From Rubrivivax sp. (GTDB taxonomy: Bacteria; Pseudomonadota; Gammaproteobacteria; Burkholderiales; Burkholderiaceae_C), in the NCBI GenBank assembly GCA_027485165.1, contig JAIXRN010000057.1, positions 1 through 64,000 on the forward strand: DNA of 64,000 bases. Direction: 5' to 3'. The notes beneath the pieces are model-generated. The model saw only the letters and a program-made list of their open reading frames with translations. It was not told the origin of the DNA and ran no database searches. The position numbers were made by a program, and so were the translations under genes. Position 1 is the first letter of the stretch, and the number at the start of each line of letters is the position of its first letter. Of the stretch, positions 43,914 through 61,294 are shown in pieces.

Positions 43914-44846
43914 TCAGGCCGGGGCCTGCTGCCGGGGCCGCGCCACAGCCAGCGGGGCCGTGGGGTCCAGCCCCAGCAGCATCTCGCGGAAGGTGCGCGC
44001 CGAAGCCGACAGCCGCTTGTGCGTGCGGTGCAGCACGTACCACTGGCGCACCACGGGAAAGCCTTCGACCGGCAGCACCACCAGGCAGCGCGCGAGCAGC
44101 TCGAGTTCGATGGTCTGTGCCGACACCACACCCAGGCCCAGCCCGGCACGCACGGCCTGCTTCAGCGCTTCGTTGGTGCCGAATTCGCAGCCCGGCCGGT
44201 ACGTCACGCCATGGGCGGCGAAGTGGCGTTCCATCGCCGCACGCGTGCCTGAGCCTGGCTCGCGCACCACCAGCGTTTCTTCGGCCACCTGCGCCAGGGT
44301 GACCGAAGCCTGCGCCGCCAGCGGGTGGCTGGGCGCGGCGATCACCACCAGCGGGTTGTCCATGAAGTGCTGGGCCACCACGTCGGCGCTGTCGGGCGGG
44401 CGGCCGGTGATGGCCAGGTCGGTGCTGTTATCGGCCAGCGCCGAGAGCACGAATTCGCGGTTCGCCACCTGCAGGCTGACGCGCACGCCCGGGTAGCGGC
44501 GGTTGAAGTCGGCGATCAGGCTGGGCAGGAAGTAGTTGGCGGTGGACACCACGGCCAGCCGCAGCAGGCCGCGCTGCAGGCCGCGGAACTGGTCCATCGC
44601 GGCGTTCAGATCGGCCATGCGCGCCGCGATGTCGCGCGCATGTTCTTCCAGTTCATGGCCGGCTTCGGTCAGGAACATGCGCTTGCCCACTTGTTCCAGC
44701 AGCGGCAGGCCCACCTGTTCTTCCAGCTGCTTCATCTGCATCGACACCGCGGGCTGGGTCAGATGCATTTCGGTGGCGGCGCGCGAAATCGAACCGCAGC
44801 GTGCCACGGCTTCGAAGATCTTCAGGTGACGCAGGGTGATGTGCAT
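43914..44846 (-). CDS. LysR-family transcriptional regulator (CbbR-like), probable regulator of the 3-hydroxypropionate cluster
   Basis: A 310-residue regulator from ATG 44846 (MHITLRHLKIFEAVARCGSIS). The helix-turn-helix is SRAATEMHLTQPAVSMQMKQLEEQVG, followed by an effector domain (LLRLAVVSTANYFLPSLIADFNRRYPGV). This combination matches the CbbR/CysB-like branch that controls Calvin-cycle genes in autotrophic proteobacteria. It ends up 20 bases downstream of meh on the same strand and next to the divergent bi-cycle operon. A role in controlling CO2 fixation is therefore plausible, although inferred from position and subfamily only. Confidence 0.88.
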   Translation of the reverse strand: MHITLRHLKIFEAVARCGSISRAATEMHLTQPAVSMQMKQLEEQVGLPLLEQVGKRMFLTEAGHELEEHARDIAARMADLNAAMDQFRGLQRGLLRLAVVSTANYFLPSLIADFNRRYPGVRVSLQVANREFVLSALADNSTDLAITGRPPDSADVVAQHFMDNPLVVIAAPSHPLAAQASVTLAQVAEETLVVREPGSGTRAAMERHFAAHGVTYRPGCEFGTNEALKQAVRAGLGLGVVSAQTIELELLARCLVVLPVEGFPVVRQWYVLHRTHKRLSASARTFREMLLGLDPTAPLAVARPRQQAPA

Positions 44847-44866
44847 GACGCGGGCCGCACCGGCAG

Positions 44867-45754
44867 CTAGCCCAGCGTGGCGCTGGCCAGCAGTGCTGCC
44901 TGCCCGTCGGGCCCCAGGGCCTGCAGGTTCACGGTGTCGCCTTCCGGCGTGCCCAGCAGGTGCACCGGCCCCAGGTCGAACAGCGGCGCCACGCCGCGGA
45001 AGCTGAAGGCCCGCACCGCCCGCGGGGTGGACTGCCGCACCAGCTGCAGCAGCAGCACGGCCGTCAGCGGGCCGTGCACCACCAGGCCCGGGTAGCCTTC
45101 CACCTGCTGGGCATAGGCACGGTCGTAGTGGATGCGGTGGGCGTTGAAGGTCAGGGCCGAAAAGCGGAACAGCAGCCGCGTGTCGGGCTGCACGCTGCGC
45201 TGCCAGCTGCTGGCTGGCGCAGGCGGCAGGGCGGCTGCCACGGGCGCCGGCACGGGCGCGCCGGCTTCGCGGTAGACGATGTCCTGCTGCTCTTCCAGGC
45301 ACAGCTGCCCGTCCTGCAGGAAGCGGTAGGCCACGGTGACGAAGGCCAGCGCCCCGGTCTTGCCATGCTTGATGACAACCTTGTCGATGCGGCCTTCGCG
45401 CAGCGCCGGCACGCCCACGCGCAGCGGCTGGTGCACCTGGATGCGGGCGCCGGCAAACATGCGCCGCGGGTAGGGGATGGGTGGCAGGAAGCCGCCGCGT
45501 TGCGGGTGGCCGTCGGCGTCCAGCCGGGCCTGTGGGGCCCGGGGCAGGAAGTGGAACCAGTGCCAGGGCAAGGGCAGGGCGTCGCCTGCCGCCAGAGCCG
45601 CGCCGGTCTCGTCCAGCATGGCCTGCGCGGCCTGGGCCTGCACCCAGGACATCGGGTCGGCCACCTGTTCGGTGCGCCCGACCCAGGCGGAAAAGTCGAC
45701 CTCGGCGCCGTTCGGCGTGGGGGTGGCGGGGTGTGATTCCGAGGCTTTTTCCAT
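44867..45754 (-). CDS. meh: Mesaconyl-C4-CoA hydratase (MaoC/FAS1-type)
   Basis: Predicted to hydrate mesaconyl-C4-CoA to (S)-citramalyl-CoA, the step before lyase cleavage to acetyl-CoA and pyruvate in the 3-hydroxypropionate bi-cycle. It is 295 residues from ATG 45754 (MEKASESHPATPTP); a TTG at 45766 is an alternative. It is a double hot-dog protein. The N-terminal half contains DPMSWVQAQAAQAML and WHWFHFLPRAPQ. The C-terminal hydratase segment FNAHRIHYDRAYAQQVEGYPGLVVHGPL has the Asp/His-type active site of R-hydratases. It is divergent from the smtA-mcr operon. The close homologue family also includes other enoyl hydratases (HTD2-like); the setting beside mct, mcl and mch decides the call. 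Confidence 0.85.
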   Translation of the reverse strand: MEKASESHPATPTPNGAEVDFSAWVGRTEQVADPMSWVQAQAAQAMLDETGAALAAGDALPLPWHWFHFLPRAPQARLDADGHPQRGGFLPPIPYPRRMFAGARIQVHQPLRVGVPALREGRIDKVVIKHGKTGALAFVTVAYRFLQDGQLCLEEQQDIVYREAGAPVPAPVAAALPPAPASSWQRSVQPDTRLLFRFSALTFNAHRIHYDRAYAQQVEGYPGLVVHGPLTAVLLLQLVRQSTPRAVRAFSFRGVAPLFDLGPVHLLGTPEGDTVNLQALGPDGQAALLASATLG

Positions 45755-45949
45755 CAGCGATTCCAATGCTGGCTTCAGAAAGTCTGCATAAAGGCGCGGG
45801 ATTCCACCCGGCTGCCAAAGCGCCCGGCGAATCTAACCTCAAAGCTGATGTGCAGGGCTGGCCACCGCCACCCGCGCATCTGACCCCGCTTGAGCCGTTC
45901 TTTCCGCCACCTGCCTGGCAGCGCCGCTGCCGGGTTTCCGGGACTGCCT
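45755..45949. promoter_or_regulatory. Divergent control region between meh and the smtA-mcr operon
   Basis: A 195-base interval between two divergently transcribed parts of one pathway, bordered on the meh side by a CbbR-like regulator gene. It is locally AT-richer than its surroundings near 45771-45790 and 45835-45855. A short dyad CAGA-AAG-TCTG lies at 45776-45786, followed by CATAAA. This could be part of a LysR operator and a -10 box, but the match to the T-N11-A pattern is incomplete. Confidence 0.4.
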
Positions 45950-47209
45950 GTGACGCCATCTTCCCAGCCCGACGCCGCAACGTCAGCCGCACCGTCCGGC
46001 GCGCCCACAGGACCGGCGCCCCTGCAGGGCGTGCGTGTCATCGACGTCGGCAACTTCCTGGCCGGGCCTTACGCGGCCACGATGCTGGGCGAATTTGGCG
46101 CCGAGGTCATCAAGGTCGAACACCCCGACGGCGGCGACCCGATGCGCCGCTTCGGCACCGCCACGGCGCTGCCCGACGCCACGCTGAAGTGGCTGAGCGA
46201 AAGCCGGAACAAGAAGTCCGTCACCTGCGACCTGCTGCAGCCCGAAGGCGTGGCGTTGTTCCTGAAGCTGGTGGCCAAGTCCGACGTGCTGGTGGAGAAC
46301 TTCCGCCCCGGCACCATGGAAGGCTGGGGCCTGACCTGGGACGTGCTGCACGAAGTCAACCCCAAGCTGGTGATGTTGCGCGTCACGGGCTACGGCCAGA
46401 CCGGGCCCTACCGCCGGCGTTCGGGCTTTGCGCACATTGCGCAGGCCTTCGGCGGGCTGAACTACCTGGCCGGCTTCCCGGGCGAAACGCCCGTGCTGCC
46501 CGGCACGGTGCCGCTGGGCGACTACCTGGCCAGCCTGTTCGGCGCCATCGGCGTGATGATCGCGCTGCGCCATGCCGAACACACCGGGCGCGGCCAGGTC
46601 ATCGACGTCGGCATCTACGAATCGGTCTTTCGCGTGCTGGAAGAGATCGCCGCCGCCTACGGCCTGCACGGCACGGTGCGCGAACGCGAAGGCTCGGGCA
46701 GCTTCGTGGCCTGCCCGCACGGCCACTTCCTGTGCAAGAACGGCAAGTGGATCGCGATTGCCTGCACCACCGACAAGATGTTCGAACGTCTGGCCGTGGC
46801 GATGGATCGGCCCGAACTGGCGGCGCGCGACAAGTGGGGCGACCAGCGCAAGCGCCTGGCGGCGCGGGAAGAGGTGAACCGCATCGTGGGCGACTGGGTG
46901 GGCGCGCGCGACCGCACCGAAGTGCTGGAACGCTGCCTGGCCGAGGAAGTGCCGGTGGGCAAGGTCAATTCGATTGCCGACATCTTTGCCGACGAACACT
47001 TCCAGGCGCGCGGCAATCTCGCCCGTGTGGCCGTGGAAGGGCTGGGCGAGGTCGTCGTACCCGGCGTGGTGCCGCGCCTGTCGGCCACGCCCGGCCGCAT
47101 CGACCACCTGGGCCCGGCCCTGGGCGACGCCAACCTGGACGTGCTGCAGGGCCTGCTGGGCCTGCAGGCCGACGAGATCAGCCGCCTGCGCCGCCAGCGC
47201 GTGGTGTGA
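45950..47209 (+). CDS. smtA: Class III CoA-transferase, probable succinyl-CoA:(S)-malate CoA-transferase subunit A
   Basis: Predicted partner of the next gene in moving CoA from succinyl-CoA to (S)-malate, giving malyl-CoA for the lyase. It is 419 residues from GTG 45950 with GGGA in front; a TTG at 45890 would add 20 residues. CaiB/BaiF fold: GVRVIDVGNFLAGPYAATML, EVIKVEHPDGGDPMRRFG, NKKSVTCDL, ENFRPGTMEGWGL. The catalytic Asp of the family is Asp191 in PLGDYLASLFG. The N-terminus is Ala/Pro-rich and unconserved. Smt of Chloroflexus is built from two similar subunits, which fits this tandem pair. Assignment to A rather than B is by length and order only. Confidence 0.78.
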   Translation: MTPSSQPDAATSAAPSGAPTGPAPLQGVRVIDVGNFLAGPYAATMLGEFGAEVIKVEHPDGGDPMRRFGTATALPDATLKWLSESRNKKSVTCDLLQPEGVALFLKLVAKSDVLVENFRPGTMEGWGLTWDVLHEVNPKLVMLRVTGYGQTGPYRRRSGFAHIAQAFGGLNYLAGFPGETPVLPGTVPLGDYLASLFGAIGVMIALRHAEHTGRGQVIDVGIYESVFRVLEEIAAAYGLHGTVREREGSGSFVACPHGHFLCKNGKWIAIACTTDKMFERLAVAMDRPELAARDKWGDQRKRLAAREEVNRIVGDWVGARDRTEVLERCLAEEVPVGKVNSIADIFADEHFQARGNLARVAVEGLGEVVVPGVVPRLSATPGRIDHLGPALGDANLDVLQGLLGLQADEISRLRRQRVV

Positions 47210-47210
47210 G

Positions 47211-47238
47211 GCCAAGAGCGTGAAGCCAAGAGCGTGAA
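47211..47238. repeat. 14-bp tandem duplication between smtA and smtB
   Basis: GCCAAGAGCGTGAA occurs twice head to tail in the 41-base gap after the smtA stop, placing a second GTGAAG(G) just upstream of the smtB ATG. It is probably a small replication-slippage duplication. The second copy supplies the GAAGGGA ribosome-binding sequence for smtB. Confidence 0.7.
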
Positions 47239-47250
47239 GGGACGAACCGC

Positions 47251-48483
47251 ATGAACACCACTGCACCCGGCACCGCCGCCGCCAAGCCGCCGCTGCAGGG
47301 CCTGCGCGTGGTCGACATCGCCACCGTCATCGCCGCGCCCTACTGCGCCACGCTGCTGGGCGAATTCGGCGCCGACGTGCTGAAGCTGGAACACCCTGAC
47401 GGCGGCGACGCGCTGCGCCGCTTCGGCACGCCTTCCAAGCGCGGCGACACGCTCACCTGGCTTTCGGAAGCGCGCAACAAGCGGTCGATGACCATCGACC
47501 TGCGCACGCCCGAAGGCGCTGACGTCTTCAAACAGATCATCGCCAAGACCGACGTGCTGTGCGAAAACTTCCGCACCGGCACGCTGGAAAAGTGGGGCCT
47601 GGGCTGGGATGTGCTGAAGGCCGTCAACCCCGGCCTCGTGATGCTGCGCGTCACCGGCTACGGCCAGACCGGGCCGTACAAAGACCGGCCCGGCTTCGCC
47701 CGCGTGGCGCATGCGGTGGGCGGCCTGGCCTACCTGGCCGGCATGCCCAAGGGCACGCCAGTGACGCCGGGGTCCACCACCCTGGGCGACTACATGACTG
47801 GCCTGTACGGCTGCCTGGGCGTGCTGATGGCCCTGCGCCACAAGGAACGCACGGGCGAAGGCCAGTGCGTGGACGCAGCGCTGTACGAATCGGTGTTCCG
47901 CTGCACGGAAGAGCTGGCCCCGGCGTTCGCCATGTTCGGCACCGTGCGCGAACGCGCAGGTTCCTCGCACAACGACTTCGCGGTGCCGCACGGCCACTTC
48001 GCCACCAAGGACGCCAAGTGGGTGGCCATTTCCTGCGCCACCGACCTGCTGTTCGAACGCCTGGCCCGCGCGATGGGCCGGCCCGAGCTGGCCACGGCCG
48101 ACACCTACGGCAACCAGGCCACGCGGCTGTCGCACCGCCACGACGTGAACGAGATCGTGCGCGACTGGTGCGGTTCGCTCACGCGCGAAGAGGTGCTGGC
48201 GCGCTGCTACGCCACCGACGTGCCTGCCGGCCCGCTGAACAACATCGCCGACATCTTCGGCGACCGCCAGTTCCACGCCCGCCGCAACCTGGCCACGCTG
48301 GACGCGCCCGACACCGGTGAACAGATCATCGTGCCCGCGCCCGTGCCCCGCCTGTCGGAAACCCCGGGCAGCGTGCGCAGCCTGGGCCCGAAGCTGGGTG
48401 AACACACCGACGAGATCCTGCGCGAAGTGCTGGGCTGCGACGACGCGCAGATCGCGCACCTGCGCGCGCGCAAGGCGATCTGA
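47251..48483 (+). CDS. smtB: Class III CoA-transferase, probable succinyl-CoA:(S)-malate CoA-transferase subunit B
   Basis: A 410-residue paralogue of the preceding protein, starting [30 protein letters not shown] in outline. It has the same landmarks: [48 protein letters not shown], and catalytic Asp180 in [11 protein letters not shown]. The C-terminal half is conserved with SmtA throughout ([13 protein letters not shown] against VPVGKVNSIADIF). Together they would form the heteromeric malate CoA-transferase. The start has GAAGGGA about ten bases upstream. Its stop codon abuts the ATG of the next gene with no gap, so translation is likely coupled. Other class III transferases (formyl-, crotonobetainyl-CoA) look alike, so context carries weight. 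Confidence 0.8.
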
Positions 48484-49725
48484 ATGACAGCTTCCTCGTC
48501 CCCCACGCGCGGCATCCTGCAGGGCCTGCGCATCGTGGAAGGCTCGGCCTTCGTCGCCGCGCCCCTGGGCGGCATGAGCCTGGCGCAGCTGGGCGCCGAC
48601 GTGATCCGTTTCGACCCCATCGGCGGCGGGCTGGACCACACGCGCTGGCCGCTCAGTGCGCAGGGCCAGTCGATGTTCTGGGCCGGCATGAACAAGGGCA
48701 AGCGCTCGATCGCGGTCGACATCCGCCAGCCCCGCGGCCAGGAATTGCTGACGGCGCTGATTACGGCACCCGGCCCGCAGGCCGGCCTGTTCAGCACCAA
48801 CTTCCCGGCCCGTGGCTGGCTGGCCTACGACAAGCTGGCCGCGCGCCGGCCCGACCTGGTGATGGTGAACCTGATGGGGCGGCGCGACGGCGGCTCTGAA
48901 GTGGACTACACCGTCAACCCGCAGCTGGGCTTTCCGGCCCTGACCGGCCCCACCACCTGCCGCGAACCCACCAACCACGTCTTCCCGGCCTGGGACGCCA
49001 TCACCGGCCAGATGATCGCCACCGCGATGCTGGCCGCGCTGCGCCACCGCGACCAGACCGGTGAAGGCCAGCTGGTGACCCTGGCACTGAAGGACGTAGG
49101 CCTGGCCATGCTGGGCCACATGGGCATGATCGCCGAAGTGCAGGTGGGCGGCGTGGACCGGCCTCGCTACGGCAACGACCTGTACGGCGCTTTCGGCCGC
49201 GACTTCGTCACCCGCGATGGCCAGCGCCTCATGGTGGTGGGCCTGACCGACCTGCAATGGCAATGCCTGCTGAAGGCCACCGGCCTGGCCGACGCCGTGG
49301 CCAAGCTGGGCGCGCTGCTGCAGGTGGACCTGGCCGACGAAGGCCAGCGCTTCCGCGCCCGCGAGGCCCTGGCGGCGCTGTTCGAACCCTGGTTCGCCGA
49401 CAGACCGATGGACGAGGTGCGCGCCACCTTCGACACCCACCGCGTCACCTGGGGCCCCTACCGCACCGTGACCCAGGCGCTGGCGCAGGACCCGGACCTG
49501 AGCACCGACCACCCCATGTTCAGCTGGATCGACCAGCCCGGCATCGGCCGCTACCTGGCGCCCGCCACGCCGCTGGACTTCAGCAAGATGCCGCGCCTGC
49601 CCGCTGCCCCGGCCCCTGTGCTGGGCCAGCACACCGACGAGATCCTGCACGACCTGCTGGGCCTGCCGGCGCATGAGATCGGTGCCCTGCACGACGCCGG
49701 GGTCGTGGCGGGACCTGCAGCCTGA
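48484..49725 (+). CDS. mct: Mesaconyl-CoA C1-C4 CoA-transferase
   Basis: Predicted to shift CoA within one molecule, turning mesaconyl-C1-CoA into mesaconyl-C4-CoA without an external acceptor. It is 413 residues and also a CaiB/BaiF protein, but clearly divergent from the two Smt-like neighbours. The N-terminus GLRIVEGSAFVAAPLGGMSLAQLGADVIRFDP lacks the usual RVxDxxxxxAGP pattern. It has IGGGLDHTRWPL, and the catalytic Asp171 sits in FPAWDAITGQM instead of LGDY. This pattern agrees with my recollection of Chloroflexus Mct. It begins immediately after the smtB stop and is followed 24 bases later by mcl. Confidence 0.83.
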   Translation: MTASSSPTRGILQGLRIVEGSAFVAAPLGGMSLAQLGADVIRFDPIGGGLDHTRWPLSAQGQSMFWAGMNKGKRSIAVDIRQPRGQELLTALITAPGPQAGLFSTNFPARGWLAYDKLAARRPDLVMVNLMGRRDGGSEVDYTVNPQLGFPALTGPTTCREPTNHVFPAWDAITGQMIATAMLAALRHRDQTGEGQLVTLALKDVGLAMLGHMGMIAEVQVGGVDRPRYGNDLYGAFGRDFVTRDGQRLMVVGLTDLQWQCLLKATGLADAVAKLGALLQVDLADEGQRFRAREALAALFEPWFADRPMDEVRATFDTHRVTWGPYRTVTQALAQDPDLSTDHPMFSWIDQPGIGRYLAPATPLDFSKMPRLPAAPAPVLGQHTDEILHDLLGLPAHEIGALHDAGVVAGPAA

Positions 49726-49749
49726 CAAGACAAAACGACGGAGACGCCC

Positions 49750-50793
49750 TTGAAACTGCCGAACAACTTCTACAAGCCCCTGGCCATTGGCGCGCCCGCG
49801 CCCTTCCGCGAACTGCCGGTGCGGCCAGAACGCGTGGTGCACTTTTTCCCGCCCCACATCGAAAAGATCCGGGCCCGCATGACGGAAACCGCGGGCCAGG
49901 TGGACGTGCTGTGCGGCAACCTGGAAGACGCCATTCCGCTGGACCAGAAAGACAACGCGCGCCGCGGCTTTATCCAGGGCGTGCAGCAAGCCGACCTGGG
50001 TGATACCGGCCTGTGGGTGCGTGTGAACTGCCTGAACAGCCCCTGGCTGCTGGACGACCTGTCGGAGATCGTCGCTGGCTGCGGCAACCGGCTGGATGCG
50101 GTGATGATCCCCAAGGTCGAAGGCCCCTGGGACATCCACTTCGTCGACCAGTACCTGGCGCAGCTGGAGGCGCGCAACGGCATCAAAAAGCCCATCCTCA
50201 TCCACGCGCTGCTGGAGACGGCCGAAGGCGTGAAGAACGTCGAGCAGATCGCCACCGCCAGCCCGCGTATGCACGGCATGAGCCTGGGCCCGGCCGACCT
50301 GGCCGCTTCGCGCGGCATGAAGACCACGCGCGTGGGCGGCGGCCACCCCGGCTACGGCGTGCTGGCCGACCCGGTGGAAGGCCAGCCCGAACGTAGCTAC
50401 GCGCAACAGGACCTGTGGCACTACACGCTGGCCCGCATGGTGGACGCGTGCGCGGCCAGTGGCATTCGCGCCTTCTACGGCCCCTTTGGCGACCTGAAGG
50501 ACGAAGCCGGCTGCGAGGCTCAATTTCGCAATGCGTTCATCATGGGCTGCGCCGGGGCCTGGTCGCTGGCGCCGAACCAGATCGCGATTGCCAAGCGCGT
50601 GTTCAGCCCCGACGTGAAGGAAGTGCTGTTCGCCAAGCGCATCCTGGAAGCCATGCCTGATGGCACTGGCGTGGCCACCATCGACGGCAAGATGCAGGAC
50701 GACGCGACCTGGAAACAGGCCAAGGTGATGGTCGATCTGGCGCGCCTGGTGGCCCGCAAAGACCCGGCCCTGGCAGCGGCCTATGGCCTGTGA
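49750..50793 (+). CDS. mcl: Malyl-CoA / beta-methylmalyl-CoA / (S)-citramalyl-CoA lyase
   Basis: Trifunctional HpcH/HpaI (CitE)-superfamily lyase of 347 residues. It cleaves malyl-CoA to acetyl-CoA and glyoxylate, condenses glyoxylate with propionyl-CoA, and cleaves citramalyl-CoA to acetyl-CoA and pyruvate. Motifs seen are [48 protein letters not shown] (active-site Glu), [20 protein letters not shown] (metal-binding Asp) and [19 protein letters not shown]. The whole sequence looks very close to the Chloroflexus enzyme as I remember it, including the ending [18 protein letters not shown]. It starts at a TTG with GGAG seven bases upstream, an uncommon codon that may lower its expression. Confidence 0.94.
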
Positions 50794-50818
50794 CCGCAGC
50801 TGAAGGAAGCGCAACGCA

Positions 50819-51922
50819 ATGTCCACATCTTCCCTTTCGCCGTCTTCCCCGCTGAAGACCAGCGCCGGCAACTTCTTCGAAGACTTCCGGCTCGGCCAGG
50901 CCATCGTGCACGCGCCGCCGCGCACCATCACCGTGGGCGACGTGGCGGCCTACACGGCCTTGTTCGGTTCGCGCTTTGCAGTGACGTCTTCCGACCCTTT
51001 CGCGCGGACCCTGGGCCTGCCGCGCGCGCCGATCGATTCGATGCTGGCCTTCCACATGATCTTCGGCCGCACCGTGGCCGACGTGTCGCTGAACGCAATC
51101 GCCAACCTGGGCTATGCCGGCGGGCTGTTTGGCGCGCCGCTGTACCCGGGCGACACCATCAGCAGCGATTCCACGGTCATCGGCCTGAAGGAAAACCGCG
51201 ACGGCAAGACCGGCGTGGTTTACGTGCGGTCCATCGGCCGCAATCAGGACGGGCAGACGGTGCTGGACTACAGGCGCTGGGTGATGGTTCGCAAGCGCGG
51301 CAGTGAATCCAGCGATGGGCGTACCGCCAGCACCCCCCCGCCTGAAGCCGTGGTGCCTGAACTGCCGCTTTTCGTGCCGGTGGAAGAACTGCACTGCCCG
51401 TACCAGCTGGCCCCGGGCGCCTACGACAGCGCGCGCGCCGGCAGCCCCTTCCTGTGGGACGACTATGCGGTGGGCGAGCGCATCGACCATGTCGACGGCA
51501 CCACCATCGAAGAAGCCGAACACATGCTGGCCACGCGCCTTTACCAGAACACCGCCAAGGTGCACTTCAACCAGCACGTGGAACGTGGCGGCCGCTTTGG
51601 CAAACGCATCGTCTATGGCGGGCACGTCATCAGCGTGGCGCGGGCGCTGTCGTACAACGGCCTGGCCAATGCCCTGTGCGTGGCCGCCATCCACGGCGGC
51701 AAGCATGTGGCGCCCAGCTTTGCCGGCGACACGCTCTACGCCTGGTCGGAAGTGCTGGCCAAGGACGCCTTGCCGGGCCGCAGCGACATCGGCGCGCTGC
51801 GCATCCGCACCGTCGCCACGAAAGACCGCGCCTGCCACGACTTCCCTGGCCACGACCCCGCCAGCCCCGACCCGGCCGTGGTGCTGGACTTCGACTATTC
51901 CGTGCTGATGCCCCGGCGCTGA
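50819..51922 (+). CDS. mch: Mesaconyl-C1-CoA hydratase (beta-methylmalyl-CoA dehydratase)
   Basis: Interconverts beta-methylmalyl-CoA and mesaconyl-C1-CoA. It is 367 residues with two tandem MaoC-type hot-dog domains. The first (about 18-165) has NFFEDFRLGQAIVHAPPRTITVGDVAAYTALFG and APLYPGDTISSDSTVIG. The second (about 210-365) has FLWDDYAVGERIDHVDGTTIEEAEHM, FNQHVERGGRFGKRIVYGGHVISVARAL and SFAGDTLYAWSEVL. These are the features of the Mch/Mcd family used in the ethylmalonyl-CoA pathway and the bi-cycle. No ethylmalonyl-CoA pathway genes (ccr, ecm, msd) are present, which favours the bi-cycle role. A ribosome-binding site GAAGGAAG lies about nine bases before the ATG; pcs follows after 53 bases. 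Confidence 0.92.
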   Translation: MSTSSLSPSSPLKTSAGNFFEDFRLGQAIVHAPPRTITVGDVAAYTALFGSRFAVTSSDPFARTLGLPRAPIDSMLAFHMIFGRTVADVSLNAIANLGYAGGLFGAPLYPGDTISSDSTVIGLKENRDGKTGVVYVRSIGRNQDGQTVLDYRRWVMVRKRGSESSDGRTASTPPPEAVVPELPLFVPVEELHCPYQLAPGAYDSARAGSPFLWDDYAVGERIDHVDGTTIEEAEHMLATRLYQNTAKVHFNQHVERGGRFGKRIVYGGHVISVARALSYNGLANALCVAAIHGGKHVAPSFAGDTLYAWSEVLAKDALPGRSDIGALRIRTVATKDRACHDFPGHDPASPDPAVVLDFDYSVLMPRR

Positions 51923-51975
51923 GACGGCGCACCCCGCCTTCCTTCTAGCCGTCCAGACGCTCTGACGCCCTGACC

Positions 51976-54900
51976 ATGACCACCACCTCCACACCCGCGC
52001 GCCCCACCGCTGTCCCCCAGGCCCAGTTCAACCCGGTGCGCACCCGGCGCGACTGGGAAGCGCAGCGCGCCGCCGCCATCGCTGACCCCGGCGCCTTCCA
52101 TGGGGCGATCGCGAAGCGGCAGATCCACTGGTTCGTGCCCGGCCAGGGCGCGCAGGGTGCCTGGCTCAGCTTCGACGAAACCCGCGGCTGCTGGACGGGC
52201 TGGGACGCCGCCAGCGCCGCGCCGCTGATCCTGGACCTGGGCGAAGGCTTCGAACCCTGGCAGCGCGCGTTCAACCCCGACGACGCACCGCACTGGAAGT
52301 GGTTTGAAGGCGGGCGCACCAACGCCTGCTTCAACGAAGTCGACCGCCATGTGTTGGCCGGCTTCGGCTCTGAGGCGGCCTTCCTGTTCGAAGGCGACCG
52401 CTGGGACATGTCGCAGGACGGCGGCCGCGGCGCGCCGGTGGACGCCTACGCCATCTCGCGCAAGAAGCTGCTGCTGGAAACCGCCAAGTGCGCGCTGGCG
52501 CTGCAGGCCCTGGGCCTGAAGGCCGGCGACCGCATCGCGCTGAACCTGCCCAACATCCCCGCCCAGCTGTACTGGACCGAAGCCGCCAAGCGCCTGGGCG
52601 TGGTCTACACGCCGGTGTTCGGCGGCTTTTCCGACAAGACGCTGAGCGACCGCATCCACGACGCCGGCGCACGCGTGGTCATCACCGCCGACGGCGGCTA
52701 CCGCAATGCCCAGATCGTCGCCTTCAAGACGGCCTACACCGACCCCGCGCTGGACGACTACGTGCCTGTGGCCACCGCGCGTGCGGCGATCGCGCAGCGC
52801 CTGGCCACGCTGGGCCTGTCCGACGCCGACGCGCAGCAGCTGCTGACGACCGTGGACGAGACCCTGGCCGGCGAAGTGACGGTTCAGCGCAGCGACGCGA
52901 TGCGCGGCGTGGGCCGCGCGCTGCGCGACCTGGGCCGCCAGGGCCGGCTGAACGCGGCCGAAGCTTCAAGGGTGCGCACGGCAGTGGCCGAAGCCCTGGT
53001 GGCCACGCCGCCGCGTGTGGACGCGGTGGTGGTGGTGCGGCACACGGCGCAGTCCGACCTGGTGTGGCGCGCTGAACGCGACCGCTGGAGTCACGAGCTG
53101 ACGGATGCTGGCCTGGCGCAACTGCTGCAGGCTGCGCGCGGCGCGGGCTTTGCCGTGGCCGACGAAGCCGCCCTGCTGGCCCTGCCCGACGCCGACTTCG
53201 TGCGCGCCATCTGGGCCGCCAGCCCGCCCGCGCCGCTGGACGCCGAGTTCCCGCTGTTCTTCATCTACACCAGCGGCAGCACCGGCAAGCCCAAGGGCGT
53301 GGTGCATGTGCACGGTGGCTACACCGCCGGCGTGGCCCACACCATGAAGGTGGCTTTCGACGCGCGCCCCGGCGATGTGGTCTACGTGGTGGCCGACCCG
53401 GGCTGGATCACCGGCCAGAGCTACATGCTCAGCGCCACCATGACCACGCGCTGCACTGGCGTGCTGGGCGAAGGCGCGCCCACCTTCCCGCATGCCGGGC
53501 GCTACGCGTCGATGATCGAACGCTACGGCGTGCGCATCTTCAAGGCCGGCGTCACCTTCCTGAAGACCATCATGGCCGACGCGCAGAACGCGCGCGACGT
53601 GCAGCAGTACGACCTGACCAGCCTGCGCGTGGCCACCTTCTGCGCCGAGCCCACCAGCCCGGCGGTGCAGCAGTTCGGCATGGACCTGATGACGCCGAAC
53701 TACATCAACAGCTACTGGGCCACCGAACACGGCGGCATGGTCTGGACGCACTTCTACGGCAATGCCGACTTTCCGCTGCATGCCGACGCCCACACCTACC
53801 CGCTGCCCTGGATCGCCGGCGACGTGTGGGTGGAAGACGCCAGCGTCACCCAGGCCACCTTCACGCCCTGGCAGCGCCCGCCCACTGATGGCGGCGTGGC
53901 CTGGCGCCGCGCAGCGCTGGACGAAAAGGGCGAGATCGTCATCGCCGCGCCGTACCCGTACCTGGCGCGTACCGTCTGGGGCGACGCCGCGAACTTCCAC
54001 GTTGAAACCGCAGACGGCAGCGTGCGCGTGCAACCCGGCTGGAAGGGCGACGGCCAGCGCTGGGCCAGCACCTACTGGAAGCGCTGGCGTGGGGCCTGGG
54101 CTTACACCCAGGGCGACTTCGCCGTCAGCTACCCCGACGGCAGCTTCAGCCTGCACGGCCGCAGCGACGACGTCATCAACGTCAGCGGCCACCGCATGGG
54201 CACCGAGGAAATCGAAGGCGCCATCCTGCGCCACAAGAGCCTGGACCCGGACAGCCCGGTGGGCAACGTCATCGTGGTCGGCGCGCCGCACCGCGAAAAG
54301 GGCCTGACGCCGCTGGCTTTCGTGAAGCCCGCTGCCGGCCGCAAGCTGACGCAGGACGACCGCCGCCGCCTGACCGAGCTGGTGCGCAGCGAAAAGGGCG
54401 CCGTGGCCGTGCCCAGCGACTTCATCGAAGTTACGCAGTTCCCCGAAACGCGCAGCGGCAAGTACATGCGCCGCATGGTGCGTGCTTTGGTGGAAGACAC
54501 CGAAGTGGGCGACGCGTCGACGCTGAAGAACCCGGAATCGATCGACGAACTCAAGCGCGTCATCGGCGACTGGAAGCGCAAGCAGCAGCTGGCCGACGAC
54601 CAGCAGATGTTCGAGCGCTATCGCTATTTCACCGTGCAGTACAACGAAGTGCCCACACCGAAAGGTCCGCAGCGCGTGGCCACGGTGACGGTGACCAACC
54701 CGCCGGTGAACGCGCTGAACGAACGCGCGCTGGACGAGCTGACGGTGGTGGTGGAACACCTGTCGCGCCGCGACGATGTGGCCGCCGTGGTCTTCACCGG
54801 TCAGGGCACCGCCAGCTTCGTGGCCGGGGCCGACATCCGGCAGCTGCTGGAAGACATTCACTCGCTCGACGAGGCGCGCGCGCTGCCCAACAACGCGCAC

Positions 54901-57513
54901 CTGGCCTTCCGCAAGATCGAACGCATGGGCAAGCCCTGCATCGCGGCCATCCAGGGCGTGGCGCTGGGTGGCGGGATGGAATTCGCCCTGGCCTGCCACT
55001 GGCGCATCGCCGAGCCTTCGGCGCGCTTCGGCCAGCCGGAAATCCGCCTGCGCCTGCTGCCCGGTTACGGCGGCACGCAGCGCTTGCCGCGCTTGCTGGC
55101 CGCGCGCCGCGGGGCCGACGGCCTGCGCGACGCGCTGGACCTGATCCTGGGCGGGCGCAACATCGGCGGCAGCGAAGCGCTGGCCATGGGCGTGGTCGAC
55201 GAACTGGCCGACGCGTCTTCCGACGTGCTGAGCGCTGCCCACGCCCGCATCCGCGACTACCTGCAGGGCGGCAGCGGCAGCCAGAACACCAGCGCGCTGG
55301 GGCAGGCGCTGCGTGAACGCCACGACGGCCTGGTGGCCTGGAATCAGCCGTCTGCGCTGTCGCTGGACGAAGCCTTGGCCGACCCGCACCTGCGGCAGGT
55401 GCACGCCCAGCTGGACTGGGCTGGCCGCGCCGGTGCGCGCGACCGGGCGCTGCAGGCCATCCGCAGCGGCTGGACGCAGGGCCTGGACGCCGGCCTGGCG
55501 GTGGAAGCCGAGCTCTTTGCGCAAGCCATCATCGACCCCGAAGGCGGCAAGACCGGCATCCGCCAGTTCATGGACAAGCAAAGCCCCGCGCTGCCCATTC
55601 GCCGCGGCGGCGTGAAGCCCGTGGCCGAGCTTGCCGCGTGGGCCGCACAGCAGGAAGCGCAAGGCCAGCTGCTGCAGCGGGGCTCTCCCTTCTACCCCGG
55701 CATCACGCCGTTGCCGGCCTGGCAGTACGCCTTCGGCGTGCCGAAAGACCCGGCCACTGGCGAACCCTGCTTCGGTGCGCCGAAGAAGAGCGAAATCGAG
55801 CTCATCGTGCCGGTGGAAACGCCCGAGCCGAACGAGGCCCTGGTCTACATGCTGGCTTCGGAAGTGAACTTCAACGACATCTGGGCGCTGACCGGCATCC
55901 CGGTCTCGCCCTTCGACAACCATGAACTGGACGTGCAGGTCACCGGCAGCGGCGGCGTGGCCCTGGTGGCGGCGCTGGGCAGCGAAGCCAAGCGCGAGGG
56001 CCGGCTGAAGGTGGGCGACCTGGTAGCGGTGTATTCGGGCCAGACCGAGCTGCTCAGCCCGCTGGCGGGGCGCGACCCGATGTACGTGGGCTTCTCGATT
56101 CAGGGCTATGAAACCAAGACCGGCAGCCACGCGCAGTTCCTGGTGACGCAGGCGCCGCAGCTGCACCCGATTCCCGGTACTGGCGACCTGACGCTGGAAC
56201 AGGCCGGGTCCTACATCCTGAACCTGGGCACCATCGTGCGGGCGCTGTTCACCACGCTGAAGATTGCCCCGGGCAAGTCGATGTTCGTGGAAGGTGCGGC
56301 CACCGGCACGGGCATGGAAGCGCTGAAGGCCGGCACGCGCGCTGGCCTGGCGGTGACGGGCGGGGTGTCCAGCCCGGCACGTGCGGCTTTTGTCGGCAGC
56401 CTGGGCGCCGTGGGCGCGCTGGACCGCAGCGATGCGCGCTTCGCCGGCCTGTACACGCCGGTGCCCGAAGGCGACCCGGCCGGCTGGGAAGCCGCCGGGC
56501 TGCCGTTGCTGGAAGAGTTCAAGCGCCAGAACGGCGGACGGCTGGCTGATTACTCGGTCTCCCATGCCGGTGAAACCGCGTTCCCGCGCAGCTTCCAGCT
56601 GCTGGCCGATGGCGGGGCCATCGCCTTCTACGGCGCTTCTTCGGGCTACCACCTCACCTTCGTCGGCAAGCCCGGCGTGGCCGCACCCGAAGCCATGCTG
56701 CAGCGCGCCGGCGCGCGTGCCGGCGAAGCCGTGCTGCTGTACTACGGCCCGGGCAGCACCGAGCTGCTGGACGCCACCGGCCTGGAGATGATCGAAGCCG
56801 TACGCGCCATCGGCGCGCGCACCGTGGTGGCCACCGCCACCGACGCGCAGCGCGAATTCGTGCAGTCGCTGGGCTTCGAGGACGCCGTGGCCGGCGTGGT
56901 GTCGCTGGAAGACATCGCGCGGCGCCAGGGCGACAACTTCCACTGGCCCCAGACCATGCCGCGCCTGGCCGATGCCAAGCAGGACATCGAGACCTTCCGC
57001 GCCGGTGTGCGTGACTTCCAGGACCGCACGCTCAAGCCTTTCGGCGCGGCCGTGGGCGCCCTGCTGCGCAGCCCGGACAACCCGCGCGGCGCGCCCGACC
57101 TGATCATCGAACGCGCGGCGCACGACGCCCTGGGCGTCAGCACCTCGCTCGTCAAGCCCTTCACCGGCCGCGTGGTCTATTGCGAAGAGATGACGGGCCG
57201 GCGCTATGCCTTCTATGCCCCGCAGGTGTGGACGCGCCAGCGCCGCATCCTGATGCCCAGCGCCAGCATCCTGGGCACGCACCTGTGCAATGCCTATGAG
57301 GTGACGCGCATGAACGACATGGTCGCAGCCGGTCTGCTGGAAGTCACCGAACCCACGGTGGTGCCTTGGCACGAACTGCCCACCGCCCACCAGGCGATGT
57401 GGGACAACAAGCACCAAGGTGCGAACTACGTCGTCAACCACGCCCTGCCCGGGCCCGGGCTGCGCAGCCGCGACGCGCTGTTCGAAGCCTGGGCTGCCGG
57501 CGAGAGAGCTTGA
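51976..57513 (+). CDS. pcs: Propionyl-CoA synthase (trifunctional fusion)
   Basis: Single 1845-residue protein converting 3-hydroxypropionate, ATP, CoA and NADPH to propionyl-CoA. (1) Acyl-CoA synthetase, about 1-865: A3 motif YTSGSTGKPKG at 431-441, YWATEHGG, HGRSDDVINVSGHRMG from 727, and catalytic Lys829 in SGKYMRR. An about 150-residue helical insert (about 255-415) precedes the A3 motif. (2) Enoyl-CoA hydratase (crotonase), about 880-1200: AGADI at 950-954, GVALGGGME at 994-1002, GQPEIRLRLLPGYGGTQRLP. (3) MDR-type enoyl-CoA reductase, about 1210-1845: VNFNDIWALTG and nucleotide-binding EGAATGTGMEALKAG near 1437. All three active sites look intact. Length and order match Pcs of Chloroflexus and Erythrobacter. 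Confidence 0.95.
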   Translation: MTTTSTPARPTAVPQAQFNPVRTRRDWEAQRAAAIADPGAFHGAIAKRQIHWFVPGQGAQGAWLSFDETRGCWTGWDAASAAPLILDLGEGFEPWQRAFNPDDAPHWKWFEGGRTNACFNEVDRHVLAGFGSEAAFLFEGDRWDMSQDGGRGAPVDAYAISRKKLLLETAKCALALQALGLKAGDRIALNLPNIPAQLYWTEAAKRLGVVYTPVFGGFSDKTLSDRIHDAGARVVITADGGYRNAQIVAFKTAYTDPALDDYVPVATARAAIAQRLATLGLSDADAQQLLTTVDETLAGEVTVQRSDAMRGVGRALRDLGRQGRLNAAEASRVRTAVAEALVATPPRVDAVVVVRHTAQSDLVWRAERDRWSHELTDAGLAQLLQAARGAGFAVADEAALLALPDADFVRAIWAASPPAPLDAEFPLFFIYTSGSTGKPKGVVHVHGGYTAGVAHTMKVAFDARPGDVVYVVADPGWITGQSYMLSATMTTRCTGVLGEGAPTFPHAGRYASMIERYGVRIFKAGVTFLKTIMADAQNARDVQQYDLTSLRVATFCAEPTSPAVQQFGMDLMTPNYINSYWATEHGGMVWTHFYGNADFPLHADAHTYPLPWIAGDVWVEDASVTQATFTPWQRPPTDGGVAWRRAALDEKGEIVIAAPYPYLARTVWGDAANFHVETADGSVRVQPGWKGDGQRWASTYWKRWRGAWAYTQGDFAVSYPDGSFSLHGRSDDVINVSGHRMGTEEIEGAILRHKSLDPDSPVGNVIVVGAPHREKGLTPLAFVKPAAGRKLTQDDRRRLTELVRSEKGAVAVPSDFIEVTQFPETRSGKYMRRMVRALVEDTEVGDASTLKNPESIDELKRVIGDWKRKQQLADDQQMFERYRYFTVQYNEVPTPKGPQRVATVTVTNPPVNALNERALDELTVVVEHLSRRDDVAAVVFTGQGTASFVAGADIRQLLEDIHSLDEARALPNNAHLAFRKIERMGKPCIAAIQGVALGGGMEFALACHWRIAEPSARFGQPEIRLRLLPGYGGTQRLPRLLAARRGADGLRDALDLILGGRNIGGSEALAMGVVDELADASSDVLSAAHARIRDYLQGGSGSQNTSALGQALRERHDGLVAWNQPSALSLDEALADPHLRQVHAQLDWAGRAGARDRALQAIRSGWTQGLDAGLAVEAELFAQAIIDPEGGKTGIRQFMDKQSPALPIRRGGVKPVAELAAWAAQQEAQGQLLQRGSPFYPGITPLPAWQYAFGVPKDPATGEPCFGAPKKSEIELIVPVETPEPNEALVYMLASEVNFNDIWALTGIPVSPFDNHELDVQVTGSGGVALVAALGSEAKREGRLKVGDLVAVYSGQTELLSPLAGRDPMYVGFSIQGYETKTGSHAQFLVTQAPQLHPIPGTGDLTLEQAGSYILNLGTIVRALFTTLKIAPGKSMFVEGAATGTGMEALKAGTRAGLAVTGGVSSPARAAFVGSLGAVGALDRSDARFAGLYTPVPEGDPAGWEAAGLPLLEEFKRQNGGRLADYSVSHAGETAFPRSFQLLADGGAIAFYGASSGYHLTFVGKPGVAAPEAMLQRAGARAGEAVLLYYGPGSTELLDATGLEMIEAVRAIGARTVVATATDAQREFVQSLGFEDAVAGVVSLEDIARRQGDNFHWPQTMPRLADAKQDIETFRAGVRDFQDRTLKPFGAAVGALLRSPDNPRGAPDLIIERAAHDALGVSTSLVKPFTGRVVYCEEMTGRRYAFYAPQVWTRQRRILMPSASILGTHLCNAYEVTRMNDMVAAGLLEVTEPTVVPWHELPTAHQAMWDNKHQGANYVVNHALPGPGLRSRDALFEAWAAGERA

Positions 57514-57586
57514 CCCCGCTGCACTGCCTGCACGCCTGCACACCCAATCCAGTATTCCAAGAATCCAAGTACCGGGAGTTCCTGAG

Positions 57587-60500
57587 ATGGCCAAAACCAA
57601 GACCCCTCCGTCCGAAGCGACGGGCCCCGCCGGCACCCCACCCGCAGGCCGCCTGGCCGGCAAGGTGGCGCTGGTCACCGGCGCAGCCGGCAACCTGGGC
57701 GGCGAGATCGTGCGCCACTACCTGCGCCAGGGCGCGGTGGTGGTGCTGTCGGGCCGCACCCAGGCCCGCCTGAGCGCAGCGCTGGATGCGGCGCTGAACG
57801 ACACCGGCGCCGCGCCTTCACAGGTCGACGCCGTGGTCATGGACGGGGCTGACGCCGACAGCGTGCGCCAGGGCATCCAGCAGATCATCGCCCGCCACGG
57901 CCGGCTGGACATCCTGGTGAACAACGCCGGCTCGGCCGGGCCGCGCCAGCCGCTGGAGAAAGTGCCGCTGACCGACGAAGAACTGCAGGAACTGCGCGCC
58001 GCTGGTTCCACCGACACCGAAACCCTGGCCCAGGCCACGCGCAACATCCTGGGCGTGTCCTGGAACACGCTGCGTGCCGCCGCGCCCGTGTTGCAAGCCG
58101 GGGCTTCGGTCATCAACGTCTCGACGATCTTTTCGCGCACCCAGTACTACGGCCGCACGGCCTACGTGGTGCCGAAGGCGGCGCTGAACGCGCTGTCGCG
58201 CGAGCTGTCGGAAGAGCTGGGCCTGCGCGGCATCCGCGTGAACACGGTGTTCCCCGGGCCGATCCGCAGCGAACGCATCCGCAGCGTGTTCGCCACCATG
58301 GACCAGCTCAAGGGCGCCGAGGCCGGCAGCACGGCCGGCGAGTTCTTCGACCTGATGACGCTGAACCGCAGTACCGATGACGCCGCGCCGCAGAAGGACT
58401 TCCCCACGCCGCTGGACGTGGCCAACACCTGCGTGTTCCTGGGCAGCGACGAATCGGCCGCGTTCAACGGCCACGATTTCGAGATCACGCACGGCATGCG
58501 CGTGCGCAAGGAAAGCCGCAGCACCTGGGTCAGCCGGCCCACCATGCGCACCGTGGACGCGCACGGCCAGACCGTGCTGGTGGCTGCAGGCGACCAGGTC
58601 GACGACGCCGTGGGCATCGCCCGGCTGCTGGCCGACGTGGGTGCGCACGTGATCCTGGGCCTGGCGCGTGAATCCGACTGCGCCACCGCGCGGGACCGCC
58701 TGGCCGGCTACCGCGCCGACCACCGCGTGGACGTGCGCGTGTTCGACCGCGCCAACCCCGCCAGCATGGACCGTGCGCTGGCCGAAGACCATGGCGGGCC
58801 GATCAGCGGCGCGGTGATCCTGCCCGCGCACGGCGCAGACCGCTTCACCGGCGGGCTGGCCGAGGTCAGCGACGCCGACATGGAAGCCTTCGTCGACGAC
58901 GAACTGGGCGGCGCCATCGCGCTGGCCCGCAAGCTCAGCCGCTACTGGAAAGATCGGCAGGACCTGGGGCAGGAACCGCGCTTCGTGTTCGTGACAAACG
59001 GTGGCCAGGCCGCAGGGGCGGGCAGCGGCCTGCCCTGGGCCAACCTGCTGCGCTCGGCAGTGGAAGAGCTGATCCGCGTGTGGCGCGACGAAAGCGAAGT
59101 CGACGTGCGCCTGGGCCGCCGCATGTTCCGCGAATGGGGCAACCAGATCATCCGCTACGACAACACCGAAGCCGAGAACCTGCCCTTCACCGCCGGCCAC
59201 GCCGCGCGGCTGCTGTTCAAGGAACAGCGCATCCGCCAGGTCAACCTGTACCTGCCCAGCAGCATCGTCGAAGCCAGCGGCGCGCGCCGTGCCACCGTGG
59301 GCTTCACCGAGAACCTGGCCGGGCTGCATATCGGCAAAGTGGCGCTGATCACGGGCGGCTCAGCCGGCATCGGCGGCGCGGTAGGCCGGCTGCTGGCCCT
59401 GGGCGGTGCGAAGGTGATGCTGGCCGCGCGCCGCGAAAGCGAACTGCTGGCCATCCGTGAACGCATCGTGGGCGAACTCGCCGACATCGGCTATTCGTCC
59501 GCCGAGCGCCGCGTGGGCATCCTGCCGGGCGTGGACGTAGGGCAGCTCGACACCCTGGCCCCGGCCGTGAAGGCCACGCTGGCGGCTTTCGGGCGCATCG
59601 ACTACCTGATCAACAACGCCGGTGTCTCGGGCGCTGAAGAGATGGCCGTGGACATGAGCGTGAAGGCCTGGAACGCCACGCTGGACGCCAACTTGGTGTC
59701 GAACTACGCCCTGCTGCACGAAGTGCTGCCGCTGATGAAGGCGCAGGGCAGCGGCTATGTGCTGAACGTGTCCAGCTTCTTCGGTGGCGAAAAGTACCTG
59801 GCTGTGGCCTACCCGAACCGCAGCGACTACGCCGTCAGCAAGGCCGGGCAGCGCGCGCTGGTGGAAAGCCTGGCGCGCTTCCTGGGCCCGGAAGTGCAGA
59901 TCAACGCCATCGCCCCCGGCCCGGTGGAAGGCGAACGCCTGAAGGGCGTGGGCAGCCGGCCGGGGCTGTTTGAGCGGCGTGGACGCCTGATCCTGGAAAA
60001 CAAGCGCCTGAATGCCGTGCACAAGGCCGTCATCCAGGCCCAGCGCCGCGGGCAGCGCGTGCCGGCCCTGCTGGAACGCCTGGCCCACAACGACGTGGCC
60101 GGGCTGGCGATGGATTCCGAAGCGCCGCACGAACTGCGCGAACTGGGCACGGCCTGCCACAAGGAACGCGACGACCGCTGCACCTGGGGCAGCTACCTGA
60201 TGAGCGAAGGCATTGCGCGGCGGCTGCTGGCTCGGCTGCGCCTGGGCGGCTTCCTGCTGGACAGCCCGGAATGGCAGGCGGTGGAAGACGCCACCTGGCT
60301 GAAGCGCCTGCCGCCCGAAGACACGCCCTACCTGCCTGGCGCCAGCATCCAGACCGAAGCCGGCAAGGTGCGCAACGGCGTGCTGTCGCTGCTGCACCTG
60401 GGCAAGATGCCGACCGAAACCGAAGTGGCGCTGGCCACGGTCTACTTCCTGGCCGACCGCGCCGTCAGCGGCGAGACCTTCATGCCTTCCGGCGGCCTGA

Positions 60501-61294
60501 GTCTGGAACGGTCCATCACCGAACGCGAACTCTTCGGCAGCGCCAAACGCGAGCGCCTGGAAATGCTGCGCGGCCGCACGGTGTGGCTGATCGGTGAAGA
60601 GCTGGTGGAATACCTGGCCGAAGCCGCGCGCCAGCTGGTGACCGAATGCCACGTCGGGCGCGTGGTGGTGCTGGCGCGCAGCGAAGCCGGCGTGGGCGCG
60701 ATGCGCGCTGCGCTGCGCGACGTGCCGGCCGACCTGGTGCATGCCACGGCCGTGGGCGACGACCTGGAAAGCGGCATCGACGCCGCGCTGCGCCAGCATG
60801 GCTACCCGGCCACCATCGTCAGCTCGCCCTTCGAACCGCTGCCCGCCAAGCTGCTGGGCGGTGACGGCGCCGCCGCGCTGAACGCGGCTGAATTCCGCCA
60901 GATGGTGCAGGACCAGCTGACGCACCACTTCCGCGTGGCGCGCAAGGCCAGCCTGATCGACGGCACGCAGCTGGTGCTGGTGTCGCCCGACGTGCCCGCA
61001 GGTGCCGACCCCACGGGCGCCGGCTTTGCGATGGCCAACTTCATCAAGACCACGCTGCATGCCTTCACCGCCACGCTGGCGGTGGAAAACGAGCGCCTGG
61101 TGCACGACGTGCCGGTGAACCAGATCAACCTGACGCGCCGCGCGCGCAGCGAAGAGCCGCGCAACCAGCACGAACACCAGGAAGAAGTGCGCCGCTTCGG
61201 CCGCGCGGTGCTGCTGGCCGGCGCACCGCTGGCCGATGCCGAGGACTCGCGCTACCGCTCGCGCATCTACCGCGGCATGGCCATCACGGTCTAG
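57587..61294 (+). CDS. mcr: Malonyl-CoA reductase (bifunctional, 3-hydroxypropionate-forming)
   Basis: A 1235-residue NADPH-dependent enzyme reducing malonyl-CoA to malonate semialdehyde and then to 3-hydroxypropionate. It starts at ATG 57587 with GGGAG eight bases upstream. Two tandem short-chain dehydrogenase units are seen: the first with TGAAGNLG at 31-38 and Tyr193/Lys197 (YVVPK), the second with TGGSAGIGG at 589-597 and Tyr748/Lys752 (YAVSK). In Chloroflexus the N-terminal half does the semialdehyde-to-alcohol step and the C-terminal half the CoA-ester reduction. The C-terminal signature HHFRVARK, NFIKTTLHAFTAT and the final RGMAITV also match. This is the fused bacterial Mcr, unrelated to the archaeal ASD-type enzyme. 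It ends the operon. Confidence 0.95.
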   Translation: MAKTKTPPSEATGPAGTPPAGRLAGKVALVTGAAGNLGGEIVRHYLRQGAVVVLSGRTQARLSAALDAALNDTGAAPSQVDAVVMDGADADSVRQGIQQIIARHGRLDILVNNAGSAGPRQPLEKVPLTDEELQELRAAGSTDTETLAQATRNILGVSWNTLRAAAPVLQAGASVINVSTIFSRTQYYGRTAYVVPKAALNALSRELSEELGLRGIRVNTVFPGPIRSERIRSVFATMDQLKGAEAGSTAGEFFDLMTLNRSTDDAAPQKDFPTPLDVANTCVFLGSDESAAFNGHDFEITHGMRVRKESRSTWVSRPTMRTVDAHGQTVLVAAGDQVDDAVGIARLLADVGAHVILGLARESDCATARDRLAGYRADHRVDVRVFDRANPASMDRALAEDHGGPISGAVILPAHGADRFTGGLAEVSDADMEAFVDDELGGAIALARKLSRYWKDRQDLGQEPRFVFVTNGGQAAGAGSGLPWANLLRSAVEELIRVWRDESEVDVRLGRRMFREWGNQIIRYDNTEAENLPFTAGHAARLLFKEQRIRQVNLYLPSSIVEASGARRATVGFTENLAGLHIGKVALITGGSAGIGGAVGRLLALGGAKVMLAARRESELLAIRERIVGELADIGYSSAERRVGILPGVDVGQLDTLAPAVKATLAAFGRIDYLINNAGVSGAEEMAVDMSVKAWNATLDANLVSNYALLHEVLPLMKAQGSGYVLNVSSFFGGEKYLAVAYPNRSDYAVSKAGQRALVESLARFLGPEVQINAIAPGPVEGERLKGVGSRPGLFERRGRLILENKRLNAVHKAVIQAQRRGQRVPALLERLAHNDVAGLAMDSEAPHELRELGTACHKERDDRCTWGSYLMSEGIARRLLARLRLGGFLLDSPEWQAVEDATWLKRLPPEDTPYLPGASIQTEAGKVRNGVLSLLHLGKMPTETEVALATVYFLADRAVSGETFMPSGGLSLERSITERELFGSAKRERLEMLRGRTVWLIGEELVEYLAEAARQLVTECHVGRVVVLARSEAGVGAMRAALRDVPADLVHATAVGDDLESGIDAALRQHGYPATIVSSPFEPLPAKLLGGDGAAALNAAEFRQMVQDQLTHHFRVARKASLIDGTQLVLVSPDVPAGADPTGAGFAMANFIKTTLHAFTATLAVENERLVHDVPVNQINLTRRARSEEPRNQHEHQEEVRRFGRAVLLAGAPLADAEDSRYRSRIYRGMAITV

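Follow-up and report, generated by a model that had tools for sequence, protein, structure and literature searches.

We describe a 64,000-bp stretch of Rubrivivax sp. DNA (assembly GCA_027485165.1, contig JAIXRN010000057.1, positions 1 to 64,000; hereafter the window) in which eight adjoining genes at 44867-61294 are predicted to encode the complete signature set of the 3-hydroxypropionate bi-cycle. Judged from gene content and order, it is likely that in some Rubrivivax the bi-cycle took RuBisCO's place in CO2 fixation. Pathway switching is usually inferred across deep branches; here, a single genus holds genomes with RuBisCO only, with both pathways and with the bi-cycle only, carrying scars that differ in shape, and two carbon-fixation pathways seem to have been traded between close relatives. 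If true, the swap would be testable within one genus of purple bacteria, and the locus would offer a compact natural bi-cycle gene set, together with a candidate regulator, useful for study outside the Chloroflexota. The window is contig C94 of the host genome (G000), a 4.63-Mb draft that is 93.4% complete; among named members of the genus, 'Rubrivivax sp. isolate D8_MAG_00057' (L071, from genome G460; Mct 86% identical) is the closest relative.

All eight genes are intact and follow the order meh, smtA, smtB, mct, mcl, mch, pcs, mcr. An earlier sequence-only reading had named these genes, their positions and the pathway, and was borne out by intact open reading frames (ORFs), matches to solved enzymes and a recurrent gene order. 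Its description of the set as packed into essentially one operon holds for the seven genes from smtA to mcr, which are co-directional on the forward strand with intergenic gaps of 41, 0, 24, 25, 53 and 73 bp, but not for meh (44867-45766, reverse strand; alternative ATG at 45754), which diverges across a 123-bp region (45767-45889). This region presumably holds the promoters of meh and the operon, although a scan of it for the sigma-70 consensus found none.

Near full-length matches to solved enzymes make the predicted identities of Mct, Mcl, Mch, Pcs and Mcr firm. Mcl (49750-50793, TTG start) matched 4l7z at 649 bits, covering residues 2-347 of 347, and Mct (48484-49725) matched two solved Mct chains at 646-657 bits; we take the solved Mcl and Mct chains to come from Chloroflexus and Roseiflexus. 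Mch, the mesaconyl-C1-CoA hydratase (50819-51922), matched 4e3e at 563 bits, and Pcs, a trifunctional propionyl-CoA synthase with ligase, hydratase and reductase domains (51976-57513), matched 6eqo at 2740 bits across residues 24-1843. Mcr, a bifunctional malonyl-CoA reductase with two SDR-type halves (57587-61294), comprises 1235 aa from its ATG; a longer ORF starts at a GTG at 57419, overlapping pcs, and the 1209-bit match to 8hi4 spans residues 77-1291 of that longer form. Against the family model TIGR04253, Mct scored 684 bits, under the curated cut-off of 725. Its D171 and L50 align with Asp165 and Leu43 of the Chloroflexus aurantiacus enzyme (the numbering offset of the solved chain being inferred from its first Met), residues described for intramolecular transfer (PMC9813914).

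Assignments of Meh, SmtA and SmtB are weaker, resting mainly on synteny and lesser family matches. The putative mesaconyl-C4-CoA hydratase Meh has a FAS1-dehydratase-like domain, with one Pfam match at 5e-7 and 221 bits to itaconyl-CoA hydratase, and shares 55-64% identity with its positional counterparts in loci of Chloroploca, Roseiflexus, Gemmatimonadota and Accumulibacter. SmtA (45890-47209; start codon uncertain) and the second Smt subunit, SmtB (47251-48483), are family III CoA-transferases, 57% identical to each other and below the cut-off of every NCBIfam model they matched. With these, the signature enzymes of the bi-cycle, Mcr and Pcs plus the glyoxylate-assimilation genes smtAB, mcl, mch, mct and meh, are all represented. 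Compared pairwise with two relatives in the genus, G460 (seven genes) and G401 (eight genes), the bi-cycle genes have ratios of nonsynonymous to synonymous substitution (dN/dS) of 0.12-0.44, indicating purifying selection on average.

The sequence-only reading had proposed a search of the rest of the genome for RuBisCO. Across the 81 genomes sampled from the genus, 51 had a match to PF00016 (RuBisCO), and the search returned none in G000 or in G401, G455 and G460, which also carry the bi-cycle cluster. Strong matches to prk (phosphoribulokinase) were present in 53 genomes, and the locus of the Calvin-cycle (cbb) operon was examined in 26 of them; in 20 of these 26, all uncut and RuBisCO-bearing (including G414), cbbL-cbbS-cbbX-fbp-prk is contiguous and invariant in order, with cbbR beside it in 19. 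At the G000 cbb locus (contig C70; L157, 9748-12817), the flanks, cbbR, fbp and prk (505 bits, cut-off 362) are in place and cbbL-cbbS-cbbX is missing. Compared with G416, whose cbb operon is complete and which gave no match to Mct or Mcr, G000 is collinear through cbbR into the cbbR-cbbL intergenic region and resumes 39 bp on, ~20 bp upstream of fbp. The missing stretch, approximately 3.04 kb, contains cbbL, cbbS and cbbX, and most of the cbbR-cbbL intergenic region, a presumed promoter, is retained. The G401 cbb locus retains cbbR and cbbX only as short collinear pieces, and neither cbbL nor cbbS gave a significant match there. In G455, tblastn of the 6.4 kb upstream of fbp recovered no cbbR, cbbL, cbbS or cbbX, and blastn gave short matches only (best E 0.002). 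The RuBisCO scars of G000, G401 and G455 are thus different configurations. All three genomes retain a strong prk match; the same search found no strong match in G460. G474, by contrast, has cbbR, cbbL, cbbS and some or all of cbbX (at a contig edge), with bi-cycle genes on separate contigs. G452 was rejected as a fourth genome with an orphan prk, its 4,070-bp contig reaching no further upstream of fbp than the end part of cbbX.

Three trees, of pufLM from 40 genomes, of fbp plus prk from 26 loci and of seven flank genes from nine chosen genomes, all recovered the grouping (G000,(G401,G416)), with inner-node support of 0.73, 0.86 and 0.999, respectively. The pufLM tree used 40 of the 46 Photo_RC genomes, taking one copy where there were two and leaving out the fragmentary G420, G431, G437, G459, G460 and G472. 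These markers were used in place of rpoB, which was found in 47 of the 81 genomes and was missing from four key bins. Given that G416 has an intact cbb operon, its pairing with G401 suggests that the RuBisCO losses in G000 and G401 were separate, or that separate decay followed later; the position of G416 also implies that it lost, or never had, the bi-cycle. A contig-internal orphan prk occurred in three of five prk-positive mcr genomes and in none of 47 others with G452 set aside (Fisher p 0.0005), or in one of 48 if contig-edge G452 is counted (p 0.0017).

Beyond the window, the host genome carries pufL and pufM, with puhA, bchM, acsF, puhE, crtD, pufC and a crtB-like gene on the same contig, identifying it as a bearer of predicted type-2 reaction centre and bacteriochlorophyll genes. 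The absence of methylmalonyl-CoA mutase or propionyl-CoA carboxylase had been named as telling against the sequence-only reading; contig C28 groups a full methylmalonyl-CoA mutase (1265 bits, cut-off 876) with MeaB, a PccB-type carboxyltransferase and a biotin carboxylase. The PccB name follows from the best model (TIGR01117, 791 bits, under its cut-off of 999) and from its place beside the mutase. For Acc, there were two partial carboxyltransferase-domain matches only (C44, C38). Isocitrate lyase activity was absent in Rubrivivax gelatinosus (PMC8307300). In the predicted pathway, Acc and Pcc would fix bicarbonate, Mcr and Pcs would carry malonyl-CoA to propionyl-CoA, and Smt and Mcl would release glyoxylate, which Mcl, Mch, Mct and Meh would combine with propionyl-CoA, via citramalyl-CoA, to yield pyruvate and acetyl-CoA. 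An ancestor with both pathways, which G474 still seems to hold, could have given rise to lineages keeping one or the other.

Adjoining meh is a LysR regulator (43914-44846, reverse strand; start codon inferred from the domain start) whose top NCBIfam model was NF045990 CbbR (277 bits; next model 203). This lies under the cut-off of 450, as does the 300-bit score of G000's own CbbR, to which the regulator is 43% identical. In a regulator tree, it grouped with the RuBisCO-side LysR genes L011 and L012 from other Burkholderiales families (support 0.996), separate from the window's two other LysR genes; its exact sister received support of only 0.12. The same regulator occupies the same place in G401, in G029 (from another family of the order) and in Methylibium sp. 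NZG. It was not found beside meh in G455 or G460, and the G474 contig ends short of the position. The next gene in the window, an NhaR-like LysR-family regulator (42950-43864, reverse strand), has an 89% identical counterpart beside meh in G460. ORF 44325-44870 (forward strand), conserved in G401, G029 and Methylibium NZG, was discarded as a ninth cluster gene because it shadows the CbbR-like gene on the opposite strand. The divergent meh/smtA promoter is probably under the control of this linked CbbR-type regulator. Ribulose-1,5-bisphosphate is an effector of CbbR in some bacteria, and a more elaborate scheme can be drawn in which the Calvin control circuit was rewired, with the CbbR-type regulator running the bi-cycle operon, prk kept to supply ribulose-1,5-bisphosphate as a signal only, and RuBisCO cut out independently in two or more lineages after the bi-cycle was running; we consider this scheme improbable.

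Mct matches were found in eight of 399 genomes sampled across the order (at a threshold of 1e-60) and in 18 of the 81 from the genus, with cluster neighbours only in G000, G460, G401, G474 and G455. Mcr matches were confined to six of the 81, the same five plus G414, which has RuBisCO and pcs-mcr, and an Mct match of just 49%. An Mct match by itself does not mark a genome as a carrier of the bi-cycle: the other 13 of 18 Mct-like genes in the genus are 47-56% identical and had no cluster genes nearby, in surrounding stretches of which some were only 3-8 kb and two held 27-30% Smt-like matches. Such lone Mct-like genes (L020-L032, L007-L010), in the same identity range and without bi-cycle neighbours in the fetched stretches, occur in Rubrivivax and other Burkholderiales.

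The sequence-only reading had also suggested that the pathway would be transferable as a unit, which fits the similar loci in G029, Methylibium sp. NZG and one Gemmatimonadetes metagenome-assembled genome (MAG). In a survey of 80 named loci among the matches listed, with neighbours judged within the fetched flanks, pcs and mcr adjoin the core in these three (L072, L078 and L096, respectively); the Gemmatimonadetes MAG has the same order, and in it and Methylibium mcr extends past the fetched stretch. Among the same matches, L074 has pcs and mcr upstream of meh, where L122 shows just a piece of mcr; L071 has pcs beside the core with mcr on another contig. The G029 locus (L072/L054) contains part of one smt gene only and a pcs match in two pieces, possibly through decay or assembly error. 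Flanks outside the bi-cycle unit are common to G000 and G460 and were not found in the G401 stretches, as expected of a moving unit. A five-gene tree of 35 chosen rows placed the Rubrivivax, Methylibium, G029 and one unclassified gammaproteobacterial cluster in a single clade on the Gemmatimonadota side, split with support 1.0 from Chloroflexi, Accumulibacter, Woeseiaceae and the Burkholderiales locus G075; the exact neighbour of the Burkholderiales eight-gene clusters was left without resolution. Mcl and Mct match their solved counterparts strongly over their length, as a recent import of the cluster from phototrophic Chloroflexota would predict, but the five-gene tree makes that origin, which is compatible with any reading of function, very improbable.

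Bi-cycle function is read here from genes, in key genomes that are incomplete drafts, and several observations weigh against replacement of RuBisCO by the bi-cycle. RuBisCO absence by itself was not tied to mcr (four of six genomes versus 26 of 75, p 0.19) and was rejected as evidence. The Fisher test on orphan prk ignores relatedness, the G401-G416 pairing is weak in two of the three trees, and G460, with neither a RuBisCO nor a prk match, has no scar to read. G474 has both pathways, and G414 has RuBisCO alongside pcs-mcr. At 1e-60, rpoB gave no match in G000, G401, G455 or G460; with bins this incomplete absences are soft, and we relied on scars instead. A plasmid carrying RuBisCO could have gone unbinned. 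Crude pairwise dN/dS for prk among G000, G401 and G416 is 0.07-0.11, with no sign of relaxation, which is odd without RuBisCO if prk has no use; it may reflect very recent RuBisCO loss, another role for prk, or a RuBisCO outside the bins. Were the RuBisCO gap an artefact of assembly or binning, the organism would run both cycles, as G474 appears to, and the incompleteness of the bins is in keeping with this. We nonetheless judge it quite improbable: in G000 the gap is internal to a 194,603-bp contig and has conserved genes to either side, what G401 retains is short and eroded, unlike a clean join, and G455 presents a third configuration.

Bi-cycle genes can also serve organic-acid co-assimilation, and the cluster might be a photoheterotrophic module for acetate, propionate, 3-hydroxypropionate and glyoxylate, with redox handled via Mcr and Pcs and no net autotrophy, RuBisCO having been lost with photoheterotrophy. 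Such use has been proposed for Chloroflexus, Kentron and Actinobacteriota (PMC6593406; PMC9802188), and of the 75 genus mates without an Mcr match, 26 also showed no RuBisCO, several of these having pufLM. Retention of prk argues otherwise: among genus genomes without a RuBisCO match, a strong prk match persists in three of four mcr carriers (G000, G401 and G455, not G460), whereas of the 26 others only contig-edge G452 has one, suggesting that RuBisCO is usually lost together with prk. The pcs and mcr genes, which make up the CO2-fixing half of the cycle, are also in the same operon and under constraint. We therefore think co-assimilation without autotrophy rather unlikely, and substitution of the bi-cycle for RuBisCO remains our preferred explanation; these readings overlap, and the probabilities we attach to them need not sum to one.

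Elsewhere in the window, a 1876-aa protein (9481-15111, reverse strand) combines a GlxA-like radical copper oxidase region, beta-propeller repeats and an MbnH-like di-haem piece, with family matches under their cut-offs except for the repeat model. A tungstate-binding TupA-like protein (25398-26315, reverse strand) scored 216 bits, under a cut-off of 400.

Compared with the bi-cycle of C. aurantiacus, all eight signature enzymes are present here, and the core order of divergent meh followed by smtA-smtB-mct-mcl-mch is that of Chloroploca and Roseiflexus loci. The sequence-only reading placed pcs and mcr of C. aurantiacus away from the mcl group, in agreement with published locus tags (six other genes at Caur_0173-0180, pcs Caur_0613, mcr Caur_2614; PMC3150298). 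In contrast, pcs and mcr are here appended to the operon, a CbbR-type regulator lies beside meh, and the host is a betaproteobacterium whose cbb operon lacks RuBisCO. The full set described here is not a first: the bi-cycle, together with photosynthesis, has been reported in three Ga0077523 and four Burkholderiaceae MAGs of the Burkholderiales (PMC9802188). Those MAGs, possibly of the same or neighbouring lineages as the present host, share the order Burkholderiales, predicted photosynthesis and glyoxylate-salvage genes in one operon; the available text of that report makes no mention of pcs or mcr in that operon, of a CbbR-type regulator or of a RuBisCO-deleted cbb operon. Bi-cycle genes are patchily distributed and have been given a heterotrophic reading (PMC6593406); Kentron and Accumulibacter share the second half of the cycle, but Kentron is without mcr and pcs (PMC6593406), and in our analysis Accumulibacter loci had no mcr and, beside the core, nothing closer to pcs than partial matches of 28-34%.

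Within the open-licence literature searched, supplements aside, we found no cbb-operon scar and no CbbR-type regulator at a bi-cycle locus; the missing RuBisCO in the cbb operon and the CbbR-type regulator at the bi-cycle locus are what this analysis adds. Among phototrophic Chloroflexi, the bi-cycle alternates with the Calvin cycle, related phototrophs having one pathway or the other (PMC5826079). The pattern in Rubrivivax is alike, but whereas that alternation is between genera, ours lies within one genus and comes with deletion scars and a genome that has both pathways.

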